DNA of 64,000 nt from Bosea sp. RAC05 (lineage in GTDB: Bacteria > Pseudomonadota > Alphaproteobacteria > Rhizobiales > Beijerinckiaceae), in the NCBI RefSeq assembly GCF_001713455.1, contig NZ_CP016464.1:3024001-3088000 (forward strand), given 5' to 3'. The notes under the pieces are model-generated. The model was not told the origin of the DNA. It worked only from the letters and a program-made list of their open reading frames with translations, and did not search any database. This document shows positions 4,350 to 37,602 of this stretch, in pieces. The translations under genes were made by a program, and so were the position numbers. Numbering within the stretch: the stretch's first letter is position 1; each line of letters opens with the position of its first letter.

Positions 4350-5120
4350 ATGGCCAAGCGCATTCTCCTGGCCGGCGAGAGCTGGACCTCGACCGCAACC
4401 CACATCAAGGGCTGGGACCAGTTTCCATCGGTCACGCATCACCGCGGGGCCGACGCTTTCATCGCCGCATTGTCGGGAGGAGACTATGTCTTCGACTACA
4501 TGCTCTGCCATGAGGCGGCGGAGGGGTTTCCATCGACTCCAGCCGCGCTCGACGCCTATGATGCGATCATTCTCAGCGATATCGGAGCCAACACGCTCCT
4601 CCTGCCACCGCAGGTCTGGATCCATTCGCAGCGTGCGCCCAACCGCCTGAAGCTGCTGCGCGACTATGTCGAGCGCGGCGGCGGTCTCATCATGGTCGGC
4701 GGCTATTACAGCTTCCAGGGGATTAACGGCGCGGCCCGATACCGGAACACGGCCGTCGAAGCCGTGCTGCCCGTCTCGATCCATCCCTATGATGACCGCC
4801 TTGAGCTGCCCGAGGGCATTCATCCCGTCGTTGCCCAAGGCGCAGCGGATCATGACGTCCTCGCCGGCCTGCCGACGGAACTGCCCTATCTGCTCGGCGT
4901 CAACGAGACCGTGTTGAAGCCCGGCGCCAAGGCCCTTCTGACCTTGCCGCCCGAAGAGGGCGGGCACCCGCTGCTGGCCATCGGCGAGGCCGGCCGCGGC
5001 CGCACCGCCGCCTGGACGACCGACATCGGCCCGCACTGGCTGCCGAACGAGTTTCTGGCCTGGCAGGGCTTCAGGCCGCTGTGGATGCAACTGCTCGACT
5101 GGGTCGTCCGCAAGGGGTGA
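4350..5120 (+). CDS. Glutamine amidotransferase class I-like protein (DUF1355 / PF07090 type)
   Basis: A 256-residue protein with the N-terminus MAKRILLAGESWTSTATHIKG and the internal segments AYDAIILSDIGANTLLLPP and YVERGGGLIMVGGYYSFQGI, typical of the class I GATase-like family once called DUF1355. The fold is that of a glutaminase, but no clear nucleophile-elbow Cys is seen at the usual place (the motif reads MVGGYYSF). It may therefore bind rather than hydrolyse. It starts 67 bases after the binding-protein gene and ends 7 bases before hpxZ, so it belongs to the operon. Function unknown; membership in this family is well supported. Confidence 0.8.
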   Translation: MAKRILLAGESWTSTATHIKGWDQFPSVTHHRGADAFIAALSGGDYVFDYMLCHEAAEGFPSTPAALDAYDAIILSDIGANTLLLPPQVWIHSQRAPNRLKLLRDYVERGGGLIMVGGYYSFQGINGAARYRNTAVEAVLPVSIHPYDDRLELPEGIHPVVAQGAADHDVLAGLPTELPYLLGVNETVLKPGAKALLTLPPEEGGHPLLAIGEAGRGRTAAWTTDIGPHWLPNEFLAWQGFRPLWMQLLDWVVRKG

Positions 5121-5127
5121 CGCCGTA

Positions 5128-5532
5128 ATGAGCGAGAAGACGCCTGCGATGACGATCGACCAGGAGGCGGTTGTGGCGGAGGTGGCGGACGCCTTCGCCG
5201 GCTATGAGCAGGCGCTGATGGGCTACGATCCGGCGGCACTGGACGGCTTCTTCTGGAGCGATGACCGCGCAGTCCGTTTCGGCATTGCCGAAAACCTCTA
5301 TGGCCATGCGGCCATCGCGGCCTATCGGCGTACCCGCACCTCCGTCCCGCAGCGCGTGCTGTCCAATACGCGCATCATCGCGATCGGTCGCGATGCGGCG
5401 GCCGTCAGTACCGAGTTCCGCTATCCCGGCGATCCTCGGATCGGACGACAGAGCCAGACCTGGGCCCGTATGCCGGAAGGCTGGCGCGTCGTCGCAGCGC
5501 ATGTCTCGTTCCAAGAAGACGTCGAACGCTGA
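5128..5532 (+). CDS. hpxZ: HpxZ-like protein (DUF3225, SnoaL/NTF2 fold)
   Basis: 134 residues. The block LDGFFWSDDRAVRFGIAEN followed by GHAAIAAYRRTR and the C-terminal WARMPEGWRVVAAHVSF is the DUF3225 pattern found in HpxZ of the oxalurate branch of purine degradation and in AtzH-like proteins. The family has an NTF2-like cone fold, and AtzH is known to be a small hydrolase-pathway protein. The hpxWXYZ group of Klebsiella links it with an HpxW amide hydrolase, and an HpxW-like gene lies at the left edge here. No HpxX or HpxY amidase is visible in between, so the pathway is not simply the Klebsiella one. Confidence 0.8.
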   Translation: MSEKTPAMTIDQEAVVAEVADAFAGYEQALMGYDPAALDGFFWSDDRAVRFGIAENLYGHAAIAAYRRTRTSVPQRVLSNTRIIAIGRDAAAVSTEFRYPGDPRIGRQSQTWARMPEGWRVVAAHVSFQEDVER

Positions 5533-5560
5533 CGATCTGGTGAGGGAGGGACATGTTCGG

Positions 5561-6799
5561 GTGGTAGACAGGCCTGAGATCCGCCGCTCGGGAGAACCAA
5601 CCATCGATGACGTTGCGCGACATGCGGGCGTCTCGAAGGGGACGGTGTCGCATGTGCTGAGCGGCAAAATCCGGGTTTCGCCGCAAACGCGCGCGCGGGT
5701 CGAGGGCGCGATCCGCGACCTCGCGTTCCAGCCTGCTGAAGCGGCCCGCTCGTTGACCGCGCGAAAGCGGCTGGCCGATGGTGAGCGCCATGCTCCGGCC
5801 CATGTCCCGCGCCTGACGACCGTCGGCTACGTGTCGGTCGACTTTACGGCCCAGCTGGACCGCCTGCCCCGCCGCGAGGAACGGCGGCTGTCGCGCGCCA
5901 TTGGCAAGACGATCGGCGGGCCTGCCGCGAATGTCGCCGCCGTTGCCGCCGGCATCGGTCCGCCCTTTCCCATATCGGCCTCGATCCTCACCGCCATCGG
6001 CGTCGATCAGGACAGCGACTGGGCCACCGCCGAGCTCTGGGGGCGCCGCGTGGACGTCATCACGCCCCCCGAGCGGCGCAGTGGCCGCGTGAACCGGGCG
6101 CTGGTCTTGGTCGAGGCGGATGGCCGGCGCACCATCGTCAACGAGCCTTCGCTGCTGGCCGAGGTCGATGTCGAGCATTTCCTCGCCACGACCGACGCCA
6201 AGCCACTGACCTGGTGCCTCCATTTCGAGGGCTATCAGGTGCCAAGCCGGATGGCGGCTGTGGCCGCCGCCCGCAAGGCCGGCTTCGTCGTGTCGATGCA
6301 GGCGACTGGCATGCCGCCCGATTGGCTGGCCGCGCATCATGCGACAGCGTTTGGCGCCTTCGACATCATGGTTCTGCATCGCGAATCCCTGACCCAGATC
6401 GAGCCCGCGGCGGCCACCGTCGAAGCCGGTATCGAGGCCCTTGCCGCCCTCGCTTGCCGCACACCGGTTTGGCCGCGCCTCGTCGTGGTGACGCTGGGCG
6501 AAAGAGGCGCTGTCGCTGTCGCAGGGGACGGCGCCTTGAGCTACGCAGCCGCGCCTGCTGTGGAGGTTGTCGATCTCACCGGGGCGGGCGACGCCTTCGT
6601 CGGTGCGCTCCTCGCGGCCGTGCTCAACGACGCCCCGACCGATATGGCTTTGCGCCTCGCCTGCGCCGCCGGCAGCCTGCAAACCACCCGCTATGGCGCC
6701 CAGGAGGTTCTCCCTGGTGCAGCGGCTCTCTCCCATCTCGCCGGAATGCCGACAGCGGCATTCGCGGCCCTCACAAACGGACCGGAACCGATCTCGTGA
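5561..6799 (+). CDS. LacI-type HTH fused to a PfkB-family sugar kinase
   Basis: With the GTG at 5561 (GGAGGG 10 bases upstream) the product has 412 residues. Residues 13-60 are a LacI helix-turn-helix: PTIDDVARHAGVSKGTVSHV, then a hinge-like SLTARK. Instead of a periplasmic-binding-like sensor, a ribokinase/PfkB domain follows, with GKTIGGPAANVAAVAAGIG near 130 and the anion-hole motif TGAGDAFVGA at 340-349, whose Asp344 is the expected catalytic base. The protein would bind DNA and either phosphorylate or sense a sugar. In-frame alternatives are ATG 5501 and GTG 5540. Its last codon overlaps the GTG of the next gene. Autoregulation of this operon is a reasonable inference. Confidence 0.85.
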   Translation: MVDRPEIRRSGEPTIDDVARHAGVSKGTVSHVLSGKIRVSPQTRARVEGAIRDLAFQPAEAARSLTARKRLADGERHAPAHVPRLTTVGYVSVDFTAQLDRLPRREERRLSRAIGKTIGGPAANVAAVAAGIGPPFPISASILTAIGVDQDSDWATAELWGRRVDVITPPERRSGRVNRALVLVEADGRRTIVNEPSLLAEVDVEHFLATTDAKPLTWCLHFEGYQVPSRMAAVAAARKAGFVVSMQATGMPPDWLAAHHATAFGAFDIMVLHRESLTQIEPAAATVEAGIEALAALACRTPVWPRLVVVTLGERGAVAVAGDGALSYAAAPAVEVVDLTGAGDAFVGALLAAVLNDAPTDMALRLACAAGSLQTTRYGAQEVLPGAAALSHLAGMPTAAFAALTNGPEPIS

Positions 6800-35175: not shown

Positions 35176-35364
35176 GCGGTCGACAGTCCCAGCGGAGGCG
35201 CCGACCGCGAGAGGGATCGACCTGCCCGGCGCTGTTTAGCCGGTGCCGGCCCGCACGCAAGCGGCAACGGCGCCGGGGCGGGTGGCAGGAGATGCGGGCA
35301 GGACTGAGAACCTAGGAATAAATGGACGGATTATCGTCCTAGGCATTCTGTCGCAATTATATAC

Positions 35365-35392
35365 TTGACAAAGCAGGCCATGGGGCTATCTT
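35365..35392 (+). promoter_or_regulatory. Transposase promoter overlapping the left terminal repeat
   Basis: A consensus -35 TTGACA (35365-35370) lies within the terminal inverted repeat. It is followed at 16 bases by TATCTT (35387-35392), a good -10. Transcription would begin near 35400, just before the ribosome-binding site AGGAG (35402-35406) and the transposase ATG at 35413. The right-end repeat carries the same TTGACA pointing inward, towards the small minus-strand ORF. Confidence 0.65.
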
Positions 35393-35412
35393 CCTAATCA
35401 CAGGAGACAGCC

Positions 35413-36357
35413 ATGGCCGCCGCACTCGACAACCCGATTTTCACCGACGCCGACAAGGCCCGCGAGCATCTTGAAGCCCAGCGTTGGCCCAACGGCGTCG
35501 TCTGCGCTCAGTGCGGCAATGCCGACCCGTCGAAGATTCACGGCCTCAAGGGCAAGGCTCATCGCCCCGGCGTGTACCAGTGCGCCGAGTGCCGCGAGCA
35601 GTTCACCGTGACCGTTGGCACCGTCTTCGAGCGCTCCAAAATCCCGCTCAACAAGTGGATGCTGGCCGTCCACCTCATGACCTCCAGCAAGAAGGGCATC
35701 AGCGCCCATCAAATCCACCGCATGCTCGGCGTGACCTACAAGACGGCGTGGTTCATGTGCCATCGCATCCGCGAAGCCATGCGCGACGACAACCCGCCTC
35801 CGATGGGTGGCGACGGCCATATCGTTGAGGCCGACGAAACCTACTTTGGCGACAAGGAAGTCGTTGCCCAGCGCACCAAGCGCGGCAAGACCCGCATCGG
35901 CGGCAAGCGTGCCGTCGTCGCGCTGGTCGAGCGCGGCGGCTCGGTTCGTTCCTTCCATGTCAAAAGCGCCGACGCGACCACGATCCGCGAGATCGTCGTC
36001 ACCAACGTTCACCGCACCTCGGTTCTGCACACCGACGAGAGCAAGCTCTACACGAAGACCGGCACGGAGTTCGACGGCCACGAAACCGTCAAGCACACCG
36101 CTGGCGAGTATGTGCGCGGCATCGTGCACACCAACACCATCGAAGGCTTCTTCTCTGTCTTCAAGCGCGGCATGAAAGGCATCTATCAGCACTGCGCCGA
36201 GAAGCACCTGTTCCGCTACCTCGCGGAGTTCGACTTCCGCTACAACAACCGCACGAAGCTCGGCGTCTCCGACGTGATGCGCCGCGACAACGCCTTGAAG
36301 GGCATTGAGGGCAAGCGCCTCACCTATCGGCGGGCTGGTGAAGCCGCGCTCGCGTAA
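35413..36357 (+). CDS. IS1595-family (ISXO2-like) transposase
   Basis: 314 residues. An N-terminal zinc ribbon has Cys31/Cys34 (CAQCGN) and Cys57/Cys60 (CAECRE). The DDE-type core has Asp141 in EADETYFGDKE, Asp208 in VLHTDESKLY, and the family DDN(K) variant NTIEGFFSVFK (Asn241, Lys251). The C-terminal block RYLAEFDFRYNNRTKLGVSD is also typical. No internal stops or frameshifts, so the enzyme looks functional. AGGAG lies 6 bases before the ATG. Confidence 0.95.
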   Translation: MAAALDNPIFTDADKAREHLEAQRWPNGVVCAQCGNADPSKIHGLKGKAHRPGVYQCAECREQFTVTVGTVFERSKIPLNKWMLAVHLMTSSKKGISAHQIHRMLGVTYKTAWFMCHRIREAMRDDNPPPMGGDGHIVEADETYFGDKEVVAQRTKRGKTRIGGKRAVVALVERGGSVRSFHVKSADATTIREIVVTNVHRTSVLHTDESKLYTKTGTEFDGHETVKHTAGEYVRGIVHTNTIEGFFSVFKRGMKGIYQHCAEKHLFRYLAEFDFRYNNRTKLGVSDVMRRDNALKGIEGKRLTYRRAGEAALA

Positions 36358-36502
36358 GCAGCAAGCCAAGCGCATCCTGCGTAAGCGACGCTCCAAACGG
36401 TAAAATCGCGTGGACAACCGGCGCGGGCGTGGCGCCGGGCATGCTCGCGGACTCCACCTTTCGTTCTGGGCGTGTTCCCGTCGTGGGCGGCGAATCGAGA
36501 AA

Positions 36503-36527
36503 GGCCGGGCGCTTGCGGCACCCGGCC
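36503..36527. other. Hairpin between transposase and tRNA-like gene
   Basis: GGCCGGG (36503-36509) and CCCGGCC (36521-36527) form a 7-bp GC-only stem with an 11-base loop, ending 9 bases before the tRNA-like gene. There is no T run, so it is not a textbook terminator. It could insulate the tRNA-like transcript from transposase transcription or guide processing; this is a guess from position only. Confidence 0.4.
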
Positions 36528-36535
36528 CGTATCGA

Positions 36536-36623
36536 GGGCACGTAGCTGAACTGGAAGCCTCCGCAGGCGCACAGCACCGGATTCGTAATCCGGAGAATGT
36601 TGGTTCGAGTCCAACCGTGCCCG
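36536..36623 (+). tRNA. tRNA-Thr(CGU)-like gene with a 15-nt hairpin inserted in the D arm
   Basis: A complete cloverleaf can be drawn. Acceptor GGGCACG/CGTGCCC, 7 of 7 pairs; T8-A9; D stem GCTG/CAGC; A26; anticodon stem CCGGA/TCCGG with loop TTCGTAA (T33, anticodon CGT, A37); variable loop AGAAT; T arm GTTGG-TTCGAGT-CCAAC; discriminator G. The D loop has the expected AACTGGAA, but 15 extra bases (36557-36571), able to form the hairpin GCCT-CCGC-AGGC, sit before the 3' D stem. Without them the molecule is 73 nt, the standard size. CCA is not directly encoded (CCG follows; a CCA appears 3 bases later). Discriminator G is unusual for Thr. It lies within a transposon, so it may be a decoy or regulator rather than a working tRNA. 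Confidence 0.6.
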
Positions 36624-36654
36624 CCGCCATCCTCACTACGAGGCTGGAAGCGCG

Positions 36655-36804
36655 TCAATCCTTCTTTCCGTTGGATTGGGTCTTAATGTCCTTGACGGGC
36701 TTTTCAGCCCGCTTGGAATCGTCATGCGGTTTCGGCGGCGTCGCCAGCATCCGCTTTAGCACCTCGTCGCGGCGCTTCTCGTCAAAATCGGGATCAGCAC
36801 TCAA
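36655..36804 (-). CDS. Small hypothetical protein in transposon (49 residues, TTG start)
   Basis: Beginning at TTG 36804 the product reads MSADPDFDEKRRDEVLKRML, then ATPPKPHDDSKRAEKPVKDI and a basic tail ending NGKKD. The pattern DEVLKRMLATPPKPH resembles a small family of short, highly charged proteins common in alphaproteobacteria, of unknown function. It is too short for routine gene calling. Its TTG shares one base (36804) with the ATG of the plus-strand HEPN-motif gene, so the two are transcribed divergently from abutting starts. An antitoxin-like role is possible but unsupported beyond size and position. Confidence 0.5.
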   Translation of the reverse strand: MSADPDFDEKRRDEVLKRMLATPPKPHDDSKRAEKPVKDIKTQSNGKKD

Positions 36805-37367
36805 TGTCCATCTCCAGCCCGCAGATCGTCACCGAGGAACACATCGCCGCTTTCGGCTCCATCATACATTACTACGCGTACGCCGAGAGCGGGATAAAGA
36901 TCACATTGGCCGGCCTGTTAGACATGGACCTGAGGGAGATGCTCATCCTCTCTGAGCCATATTCGTCGATGAACCTAAGGACTGTCGCAAAAAGCATCGT
37001 GAAAGAGCGCCTGGGCCCTGGGAAGGAGGCCGACCAGTTCATCCAACTGATAGGCGAGCTTGGTACATTCGGACCGCTAAGGAACGCAATTGCTCATCAG
37101 CGCTGGACAAAAGGGGCAAGGCCCGGGTCGATCAGGCCATTTCACCTCGACATCAGATCCGGCTCGGCGCTCTTAAAAGGCCAAAGCGACACTGAGAAAG
37201 ATTGGACAGCCGCAGAACTTGCAGCCGAAGGCGACCGAGCGCGCAAGCTCAACGCATCCATCGTTCGCTACATGCAATCCAGCGGCATCATTGACCGCAT
37301 GGATCGGAAGCATGCCGCCAGAAGCTCCGCAACCGAATCGTCTGACGGCAGCTCGACCAACGATTGA
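36804..37367 (+). CDS. HEPN-motif protein carried by the IS1595 transposon
   Basis: 187 residues, predicted mostly helical. The segment LRNAIAHQRW contains R93-N94-x3-H98, the Rx4-6H signature of HEPN-domain RNases in which a polar residue follows the Arg. The N-terminal helix HIAAFGSIIHYYAYAESGIK with its acidic residue and the central loop-rich spacing are compatible with a HEPN four-helix bundle. Many HEPN proteins are toxins or effector RNases that cut tRNA or mRNA. Its base composition is lower in GC than the chromosome. Its 3' end overlaps the convergent small ORF by 100 bases. The family call rests on one motif. Confidence 0.6.
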   Translation: MSISSPQIVTEEHIAAFGSIIHYYAYAESGIKITLAGLLDMDLREMLILSEPYSSMNLRTVAKSIVKERLGPGKEADQFIQLIGELGTFGPLRNAIAHQRWTKGARPGSIRPFHLDIRSGSALLKGQSDTEKDWTAAELAAEGDRARKLNASIVRYMQSSGIIDRMDRKHAARSSATESSDGSSTND

Positions 37368-37480
37368 GCGTGCTCGTCACGCAGGAACCAATTCACAAAC
37401 TCAGAACGCCCCGCCTCGATCATCTCGGGCGTGACCTCGATTTCAGTGCCGGCCTGTCGTGTTTCAGGGTGATTCGTCAT
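37268..37480 (-). CDS. Small hypothetical protein at the right end of the transposon
   Basis: 70 residues from the ATG at 37480, starting [20 protein letters not shown] and continuing [20 protein letters not shown]. The VTPEMIEAG motif recurs in short accessory and phage-linked proteins of alphaproteobacteria; function unknown. The start lies 3 bases inside the right terminal repeat, whose TTGACA may serve as its -35. The longer frame to 37573 would run through the transposon end and is unlikely. It overlaps the HEPN-motif gene tail to tail by 100 bases. Confidence 0.55.
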
Positions 37481-37602
37481 GGCTGCTTTGTCAAGTATAT
37501 AATCGTCCATTCTGTCTCCCCACTCCCCTCTCTCGCCCAAGGGAGGATGGACGCGCCCCTTCCGCTCGGCCACATTCGCTGCACCGCAGCAGGGAGCGCC
37601 CG

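Follow-up and report, generated by a model that had tools for sequence, protein, structure and literature searches.

The IS1595 family of insertion sequences (IS) includes the transporter IS (tIS), which carry passenger genes (Siguier et al. 2009, as cited in PMC11891212 and PMC7986276). The HEPN superfamily of RNases is described by Anantharaman et al. 2013 (PMC3710099) as having the motifs R-polar-x3-H and Ex3[KR], a helical fold and a high divergence, and HEPN domains are noted there in integron cassettes. Here we describe an IS1595-family element in a window of 64,000 nucleotides (the whole stretch of DNA analysed, from contig NZ_CP016464.1 of Bosea sp. RAC05), which carries a HEPN-type protein, a tRNA-like gene and two small open reading frames (ORFs) between its ends.

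Judged from the sequences compared, a mostly alphaproteobacterial IS1595 clade shares one frame. It consists of a transposase, a small opposite-strand ORF (PPKPH) and a single slot for an effector, to which an opposite-strand right-end ORF (TPEMI) is often added. Among cargo ORFs of 120 or more residues, 42 of 132 have the HEPN motif RNxxxH, versus 25 of 974 flanking ORFs (Fisher 4.6e-25), so HEPN-motif cargo recurs in this clade far over background. One open literature library was searched, and it gave no description of a tRNA inside an IS1595 element, nor of a HEPN slot that recurs in such elements and is hypervariable; the preliminary description of the window likewise knew of no such combination. 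The features of the element are listed below, in coordinates of the window.

35353-37508: complete IS1595-family element in the 4.9-Mb contig, with terminal inverted repeats (TIRs), target-site duplication, intact transposase and cargo
35345..35352, no strand: left target-site duplication ATTCTGTC, with an identical copy at the right end; the site is uninterrupted in another Bosea genome (G018)
35353..35376, plus strand: left TIR, with the perfect core ATTATATACTTGACAAAGCAG at 35356-35376 (from the sequence)
35365-35392: promoter-like site from a pattern scan, its TTGACA lying within the left TIR
35413..36357, plus strand: IS1595-family DDE transposase, 314 residues in a single open frame (Pfam, NCBIfam)
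36503..36527, minus strand: G+C-rich hairpin followed by TTTCT on the minus strand, terminator-like (read by eye)
36536..36625, plus strand: tRNA-like gene (RF00005), anticodon CGT at 36584-36586, 3' end GCCGCCA
36557-36568, plus strand: extra hairpin GCCT-CCGC-AGGC in the D-loop of the tRNA-like gene (from the sequence)
36655..36804, minus strand: small PPKPH ORF, 49 residues, TTG start, with relatives in 45 of 67 elements
36804..37367, plus strand: HEPN-type protein, 187 residues, with R93 at 37080-37082, H98 at 37095-37097, and E28-x3-K32
37268..37480, minus strand: small right-end TPEMI ORF, 70 residues, adjoining the TIR at its start, with relatives in 26 of 67 elements
37483..37508, minus strand: right TIR, core at 37483-37503 (from the sequence)
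37509..37516, no strand: right target-site duplication ATTCTGTC

This anatomy is as the preliminary description had given it, with the same coordinates, TIRs, exact 8-bp duplication, intact transposase, tRNA-like gene, HEPN-motif protein and two small ORFs. The perfect TIR core has 21 bp (35356-35376 against 37483-37503), and the two ends differ by an indel in their outermost bases. The transposase matches DDE_Tnp_IS1595 (PF12762, E 8e-34), a zinc ribbon (PF12760, E 6.4e-11) and the NCBIfam model transpos_IS1595 (NF033547, E 5e-63, 212.8 bits with a cut-off of 75); a DDE transposase with zinc ribbon, together with TIRs and an 8-bp target duplication, places the element in the IS1595 family. 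The tRNA-like gene, the HEPN gene and both small ORFs all lie between the TIRs, where passengers of a transporter IS would be expected, and the TPEMI ORF and the HEPN gene overlap tail to tail. The hairpin at 36503..36527, read by eye, would stop leftward transcription; it is also present in two other Bosea elements (G049 and G037), and the automated pattern scan of the window does not list it. The own genome has one full copy of the element; the only other matches there are two pieces, 29 and 41 bp long, that look like chance.

Frame and cargo of the IS1595 clade

The survey started from the best 80 of 350 transposase relatives together with earlier loci and gave 70 TIR-bounded elements, 67 of which were used for the counts, with L005 and L006 left out as duplicates of L019 and L020 and L007 also standing outside. 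Overall, 40 of the 67 elements have an RNxxxH protein in their cargo, a handful of these being doubtful; with L007, which holds one RNxxxH ORF (RNPIMH, minus strand, doubtful), the count is 41 of 68. When one more element is added, the motif is in 43 of 133 cargo ORFs, where shuffling gives 1.9 on average and 7 at most. The small ORFs have a stable orientation, with 45 of 47 PPKPH ORFs (in the 45 elements listed above) and 26 of 26 TPEMI ORFs on the minus strand. PPKPH and RNxxxH occur together in 35 of the 67 elements (Fisher 3.6e-5), and in 31 elements a plus-strand RNxxxH ORF starts at most 400 bp from the minus-strand PPKPH start, the two being divergent. The exact combination of four cargo pieces singled out in the preliminary description was not found in another element; what was found instead is the frame with a variable effector.

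The other occupants of the cargo were compared with protein families as well. Among 51 further cargo ORFs scanned, the matches are DUF3800 (9), NYN (2), PIN (2) and DUF6932 (2), with single matches to PIN_10, PIN_3, HEPN, C5 methylase and MT-A70. Weak Pfam hits (E at most 0.1) of 42 mainly RNxxxH proteins cover 14 families, six of them HEPN-type (MtlR, RiboL-PSP, Csm6, DUF4145, Abi_2 and Cthe_2314), and the weak PADLOC hits of the same proteins at the same threshold cover 14 models, 11 of which are Csx1, CARF-HEPN or RTasHEPN. When 41 other cargo proteins are compared by profile with the window family, 18 outscore every one of the 250 decoys and 42 reversed sequences, and 11 of these reach a probability of at least 19%; some of the 18 have short alignments (12 columns for L023, 30 for L019) and one, L043, is without the motif. 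The remaining 23 of 41 are not above these controls. The constant parts look like a vehicle, and the variable part resembles an effector taken for the most part from RNase-type families.

Two further observations concern the same clade. A second sub-group (L050, L054, L055, L056, L058, L062, L070, L083, L090 and L095) has in several cases a TIR near GATATTATACTTGAC, and its cargo is a large minus-strand gene, DUF3800 for some by eye, with a different small plus-strand ORF (20 of 67 elements). In L213, two IS1595-type transposases stand back to back at 4553-6557, about 150 bp apart, and one of them adjoins a HEPN relative.

Effectors and insertion region in Bosea

The protein of the window shows the hallmarks of HEPN, the R-N-x3-H pointed out in the preliminary description and E-x3-K, together with a helical model. 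In an alignment of 20 homologues R93, N94 and H98 are invariant, corresponding to the HEPN motif Rx4H with a polar residue following R, and E28 is invariant with K32 in at least 90%, corresponding to Ex3[KR]. The AlphaFold2 model (pLDDT 88.8) is helical with the motif at a helix end, and its structural matches include several solved HEPN structures. The protein has no match to a curated HEPN model and none in the plasmid search, and a sequence search of PDB gives just two weak matches for its family A1 (E 0.25 and 0.28) and none for A7, the family of the effector in G037 (Bosea sp. BH3). None of the four main ORFs of the element, when scanned, resembles a minimal nucleotidyltransferase (MNT), so the arrangement is not that of HEPN-MNT. 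Family A7 has 43 proteins including the G037 effector itself, and an RRNEIAHG block is invariant in the 35 that were aligned; the family aligns with the window family at the RNxxxH motif (hhalign, 76%, E 2.3e-5). The 35 members match no Pfam family at 0.01, and in PADLOC one member matches Csx1, one matches CARF_HEPN and there is one methyltransferase hit. For the effector of G049 (Bosea sp. OAE506), a word-based search of 5.8 billion proteins found only the protein itself.

The variability of the effector can be seen at one place. Six Bosea have such an element in the same intergenic region, which is flanked by an AEC-type transporter gene and a CoA-ester-lyase-like gene (names given by eye), and the effector motifs are RNAIAH in the window, RNYYIH in G049, RNQAIH in G047, RHWAVH in G046, RNRLVH in G060 and RNEIAH in G037. 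In blastp among the six effectors, G047 and G060 are the only clear pair (27% over 203 residues, E 7e-11); G046 and G047 match at E 0.002 in a segment close to their N-termini, part of which is antisense to the small ORF, and the window effector finds nothing better than E 1.9 among the other five. Meanwhile the PPKPH region of those five elements is 58-81% identical to that of the window over 15-42 residues, and in G049 an in-frame stop breaks the small ORF while the HEPN frame is open. Since the PPKPH region stays as the effector changes, and is broken in G049 beside an open HEPN frame, PPKPH is unlikely to be the cognate antitoxin of the HEPN-type protein.

How the six elements came to one region can be partly traced. 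The window, G047 and G049 have the left junction in common. The alignment of G047 with G049 runs without a break over both ends of the element while the interiors differ, which points to a cargo swap after insertion in this pair. These two also likely share one ancestral transposase deletion, whose junction is unbroken in blastn at 91% and ambiguous in fine alignment. For the window element, either cargo exchange or a separate insertion would fit. The elements of G046, G060 and G037 have their own duplications each. Six further Bosea (L186-L191) have in the same region an ORF of another kind, of 371-396 residues.

Among 51 related rows with a printed 8-bp duplication, in which one element is entered twice (L005/L019) and the window's own duplication was not located, the target consensus is TAGG, eight A/T-rich bases and CCTA. 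Paired CCTAGG motifs lie between the two divergent genes (35309-35352 in the window, and the same region in other Bosea) and have been struck in different species and in both orientations. With the preference for TAGG-N8-CCTA and these paired motifs in the region, target choice explains part of the clustering. An empty site with the target uninterrupted is seen in G018, a Bosea whose sequence is 95% identical along the joined flanks, and the cargo is absent there, which answers the comparison with empty sites that had been suggested. The joined flanks are matched somewhere in 66 of 67 Bosea genomes, essentially at full length in 15.

The tRNA-like gene

The tRNA-like gene scores 61.6 bits with Rfam RF00005 at 36536-36623, with zero non-standard pairs marked. 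Pairing is complete in the acceptor stem (7/7), the T stem (5/5) and the anticodon stem (5/5), giving a tRNA cloverleaf with an anticodon arm, and the D-loop has 18 nucleotides versus 3 in the Rfam model, the extra hairpin GCCT-CCGC-AGGC coming after AACTGGAA. ARAGORN calls the gene Cys(aca), which we take as a mis-fold; the 5-bp stem CCGGA/TCCGG frames TTCGTAA, and the anticodon is CGT, for Thr.

Other readings of the gene were considered and rejected. The gene is not a copy of a host tRNA, as the closest of 65 own-genome tRNAs compared (67 hits are listed in this genome) is a poor match, Arg(tct). Nor does it appear to be an ancestral chromosomal gene: ARAGORN sees no tRNA at the element-free sites of G018, G009, G020, G062, G064 and G019, and blastn of the tRNA piece over 20 loci matches only G049. 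Because ARAGORN misses the G049-type tRNA, the blastn result carries more weight for tRNAs of this kind. It is not widespread in the order either, for only 8 of 397 genomes (the own genome excluded) give short hits, seven in the hairpin stretch and one in the tRNA, and tblastn on these eight loci finds no related transposase. In G051 (L100) a transposase remnant has a tRNA-Val close by, which was discarded because it is letter-identical to the host tRNA-Val.

A covariance model trained on 29 host tRNAs was applied to 92 loci and finds a tRNA inside an element only in the window, G049 and G037; the remaining strong hits are external to the element (L039, L042, L048) or are the host tRNA-Val just mentioned. 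Relaxed ARAGORN settings were not used, as 90% adds hits in L008 and L039 and 80% gives hits in most elements. The tRNA of the window has the anticodon CGT and that of G049 has GGT, a difference at position 34, and the inserted hairpin also differs between them. In 40-base windows the identity of the two elements is 0.90-1.00 for starts at 36500-36660; further upstream it is 0.68-0.88, and on the downstream side 0.42-0.85, the last of these comparison windows extending into the differing effector. The G037 tRNA is without the hairpin insert, keeps the acceptor stem (7/7) and T stem (5/5) paired despite letters changed on both sides, and has no good 5-bp anticodon stem. We conclude that the tRNA is element cargo, seen only in Bosea in these data, that it is probably under structural constraint as a Bosea-lineage addition to the frame, and that, as far as the comparison indicates, it is without specific tie to any one HEPN.

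A separate tRNA gene array was noticed in the own genome on a second contig, C1 of 708,738 bp, where 469,999-478,628 (L112) has 18 tRNA hits within 9 kb, many of them duplicate isoacceptors present elsewhere in the genome.

Possible roles and related systems

The reading we favour, to which we give about an even chance, is that a transporter IS of the IS1595 family ferries and swaps stand-alone RNase-type effectors, conditionally active and probably serving as toxins in defence or conflict. The frame of TIRs, transposase, opposite-strand PPKPH ORF and right-end TPEMI ORF would carry one exchangeable effector, and here, as in most counted PPKPH-bearing relatives, the cargo includes a highly diverged HEPN-motif protein, which would not be paired with the PPKPH ORF. 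This protein may be a metal-independent endoRNase, normally inactive, which infection or stress would trigger to cut host or invader RNA, and the turnover of effectors may reflect conflict with phages or other elements. A bolder form of this, which we put forward tentatively, is that the clade is a minimal vehicle specialised in carrying orphan RNase effectors (HEPN, PIN, NYN, DUF3800), swapped so fast that neighbouring species hold mutually unrecognisable alleles at one site, in other words a mobile polymorphic locus of RNA-based immunity or conflict, and that the Bosea frame has gained a tRNA with a D-loop hairpin that may shield translation from the effector.

Other explanations have to be weighed against the defence reading. 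An addiction module, in which a HEPN toxin and the adjacent divergent PPKPH antitoxin retain the transposon in the host, would fit the divergent genes with often overlapping starts, the co-occurrence of PPKPH and RNxxxH, and the RNase toxins (PIN, once HEPN-MNT) known as passengers of the Tn3 family (PMC7157771). An antitoxin is expected to change with its toxin, however, and the type II co-variation is not seen for PPKPH (an antitoxin may lie elsewhere): the region is recognisable in the five other Bosea elements whose effectors have no blastp match to that of the window, the G049 ORF is broken beside an open HEPN frame, and 10 of 45 elements have PPKPH without RNxxxH. On this evidence we consider the addiction module unlikely. 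The stable gene order, with PPKPH and TPEMI on the minus strand in nearly all cases, builds opposing transcripts into the element, and the HEPN protein might then control transposition or copy number by binding or cutting the element's own RNA (transposase message, antisense transcripts), with the small ORFs as further regulators. A self-regulator should track the transposase, yet one site holds effectors unlike one another, and DUF3800, PIN or NYN is the cargo of other elements, so this role seems quite unlikely.

Neutral hitch-hiking, with randomly captured passengers of no common role, would account for lone cargo ORFs matching C5 methylase, MT-A70 and HATPase families and for much cargo that matches no family; it is very unlikely in view of one enriched motif, several nuclease-type families and the R-N-H invariant in two families, and the alignments of families A1 and A7 already suggest constraint on the effectors. 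The preliminary description had suggested that the element may carry a tRNA-centred module. In that case the HEPN enzyme would cut tRNA, with the unusual tRNA of the element as its decoy, target or resistant substitute. Such tRNA-cutting HEPN enzymes exist (PrrC and RloC; PMC3710099), the window and G049 are most alike just over the tRNA, and the acceptor and T stems remain fully paired in the window and G037 with differing letters. The tRNA is nevertheless not the centre of the module, because it is found in only three elements of the 92 loci, beside three mutually dissimilar HEPN-type genes, and the other HEPN-motif elements there go without it; since the G037 copy in addition has no good anticodon stem, we regard this proposal as highly improbable.

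If the effector-carrying role is true, these elements are a reservoir of candidate RNase effectors that are very diverged and overlooked by curated models. More of them could be found by a simple rule, namely by looking in the space that separates the PPKPH ORF from the right TIR of these elements, and the Bosea region would offer a natural system for following the swapping of conflict genes at one site between close species.

Compared with described systems, the element is like the IS1595 transporter IS in its transposase family, 8-bp duplications and passengers within the ends (PMC11891212, PMC7986276); the parts of these accounts drawn on here name a transcription regulator (ISNha5) as an IS1595 passenger and do not describe any recurrent slot for HEPN-motif proteins accompanied by two small frame ORFs. 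With the HEPN superfamily the window protein shares R-polar-x3-H, the acidic Ex3[KR] motif, the high divergence and, in its model, helices with the motif at a helix end, whereas it has no partner nucleotidyltransferase and no curated-model match, and the link to IS1595 is absent from the account of PMC3710099 in the portions used. RNase toxin families (PIN, HEPN) lie inside a transposon here as in the Tn3-family toxin-antitoxin transposons (PMC7157771), where a recognisable antitoxin travels with the toxin, unlike the small neighbour here, which does not co-vary with the effector. Finally, variable cargo including defence genes is common to these elements and the Tn7-like transposons (PMC8649781), and the present ones are minimal in comparison, mostly of 2-4 kb with one main effector slot.

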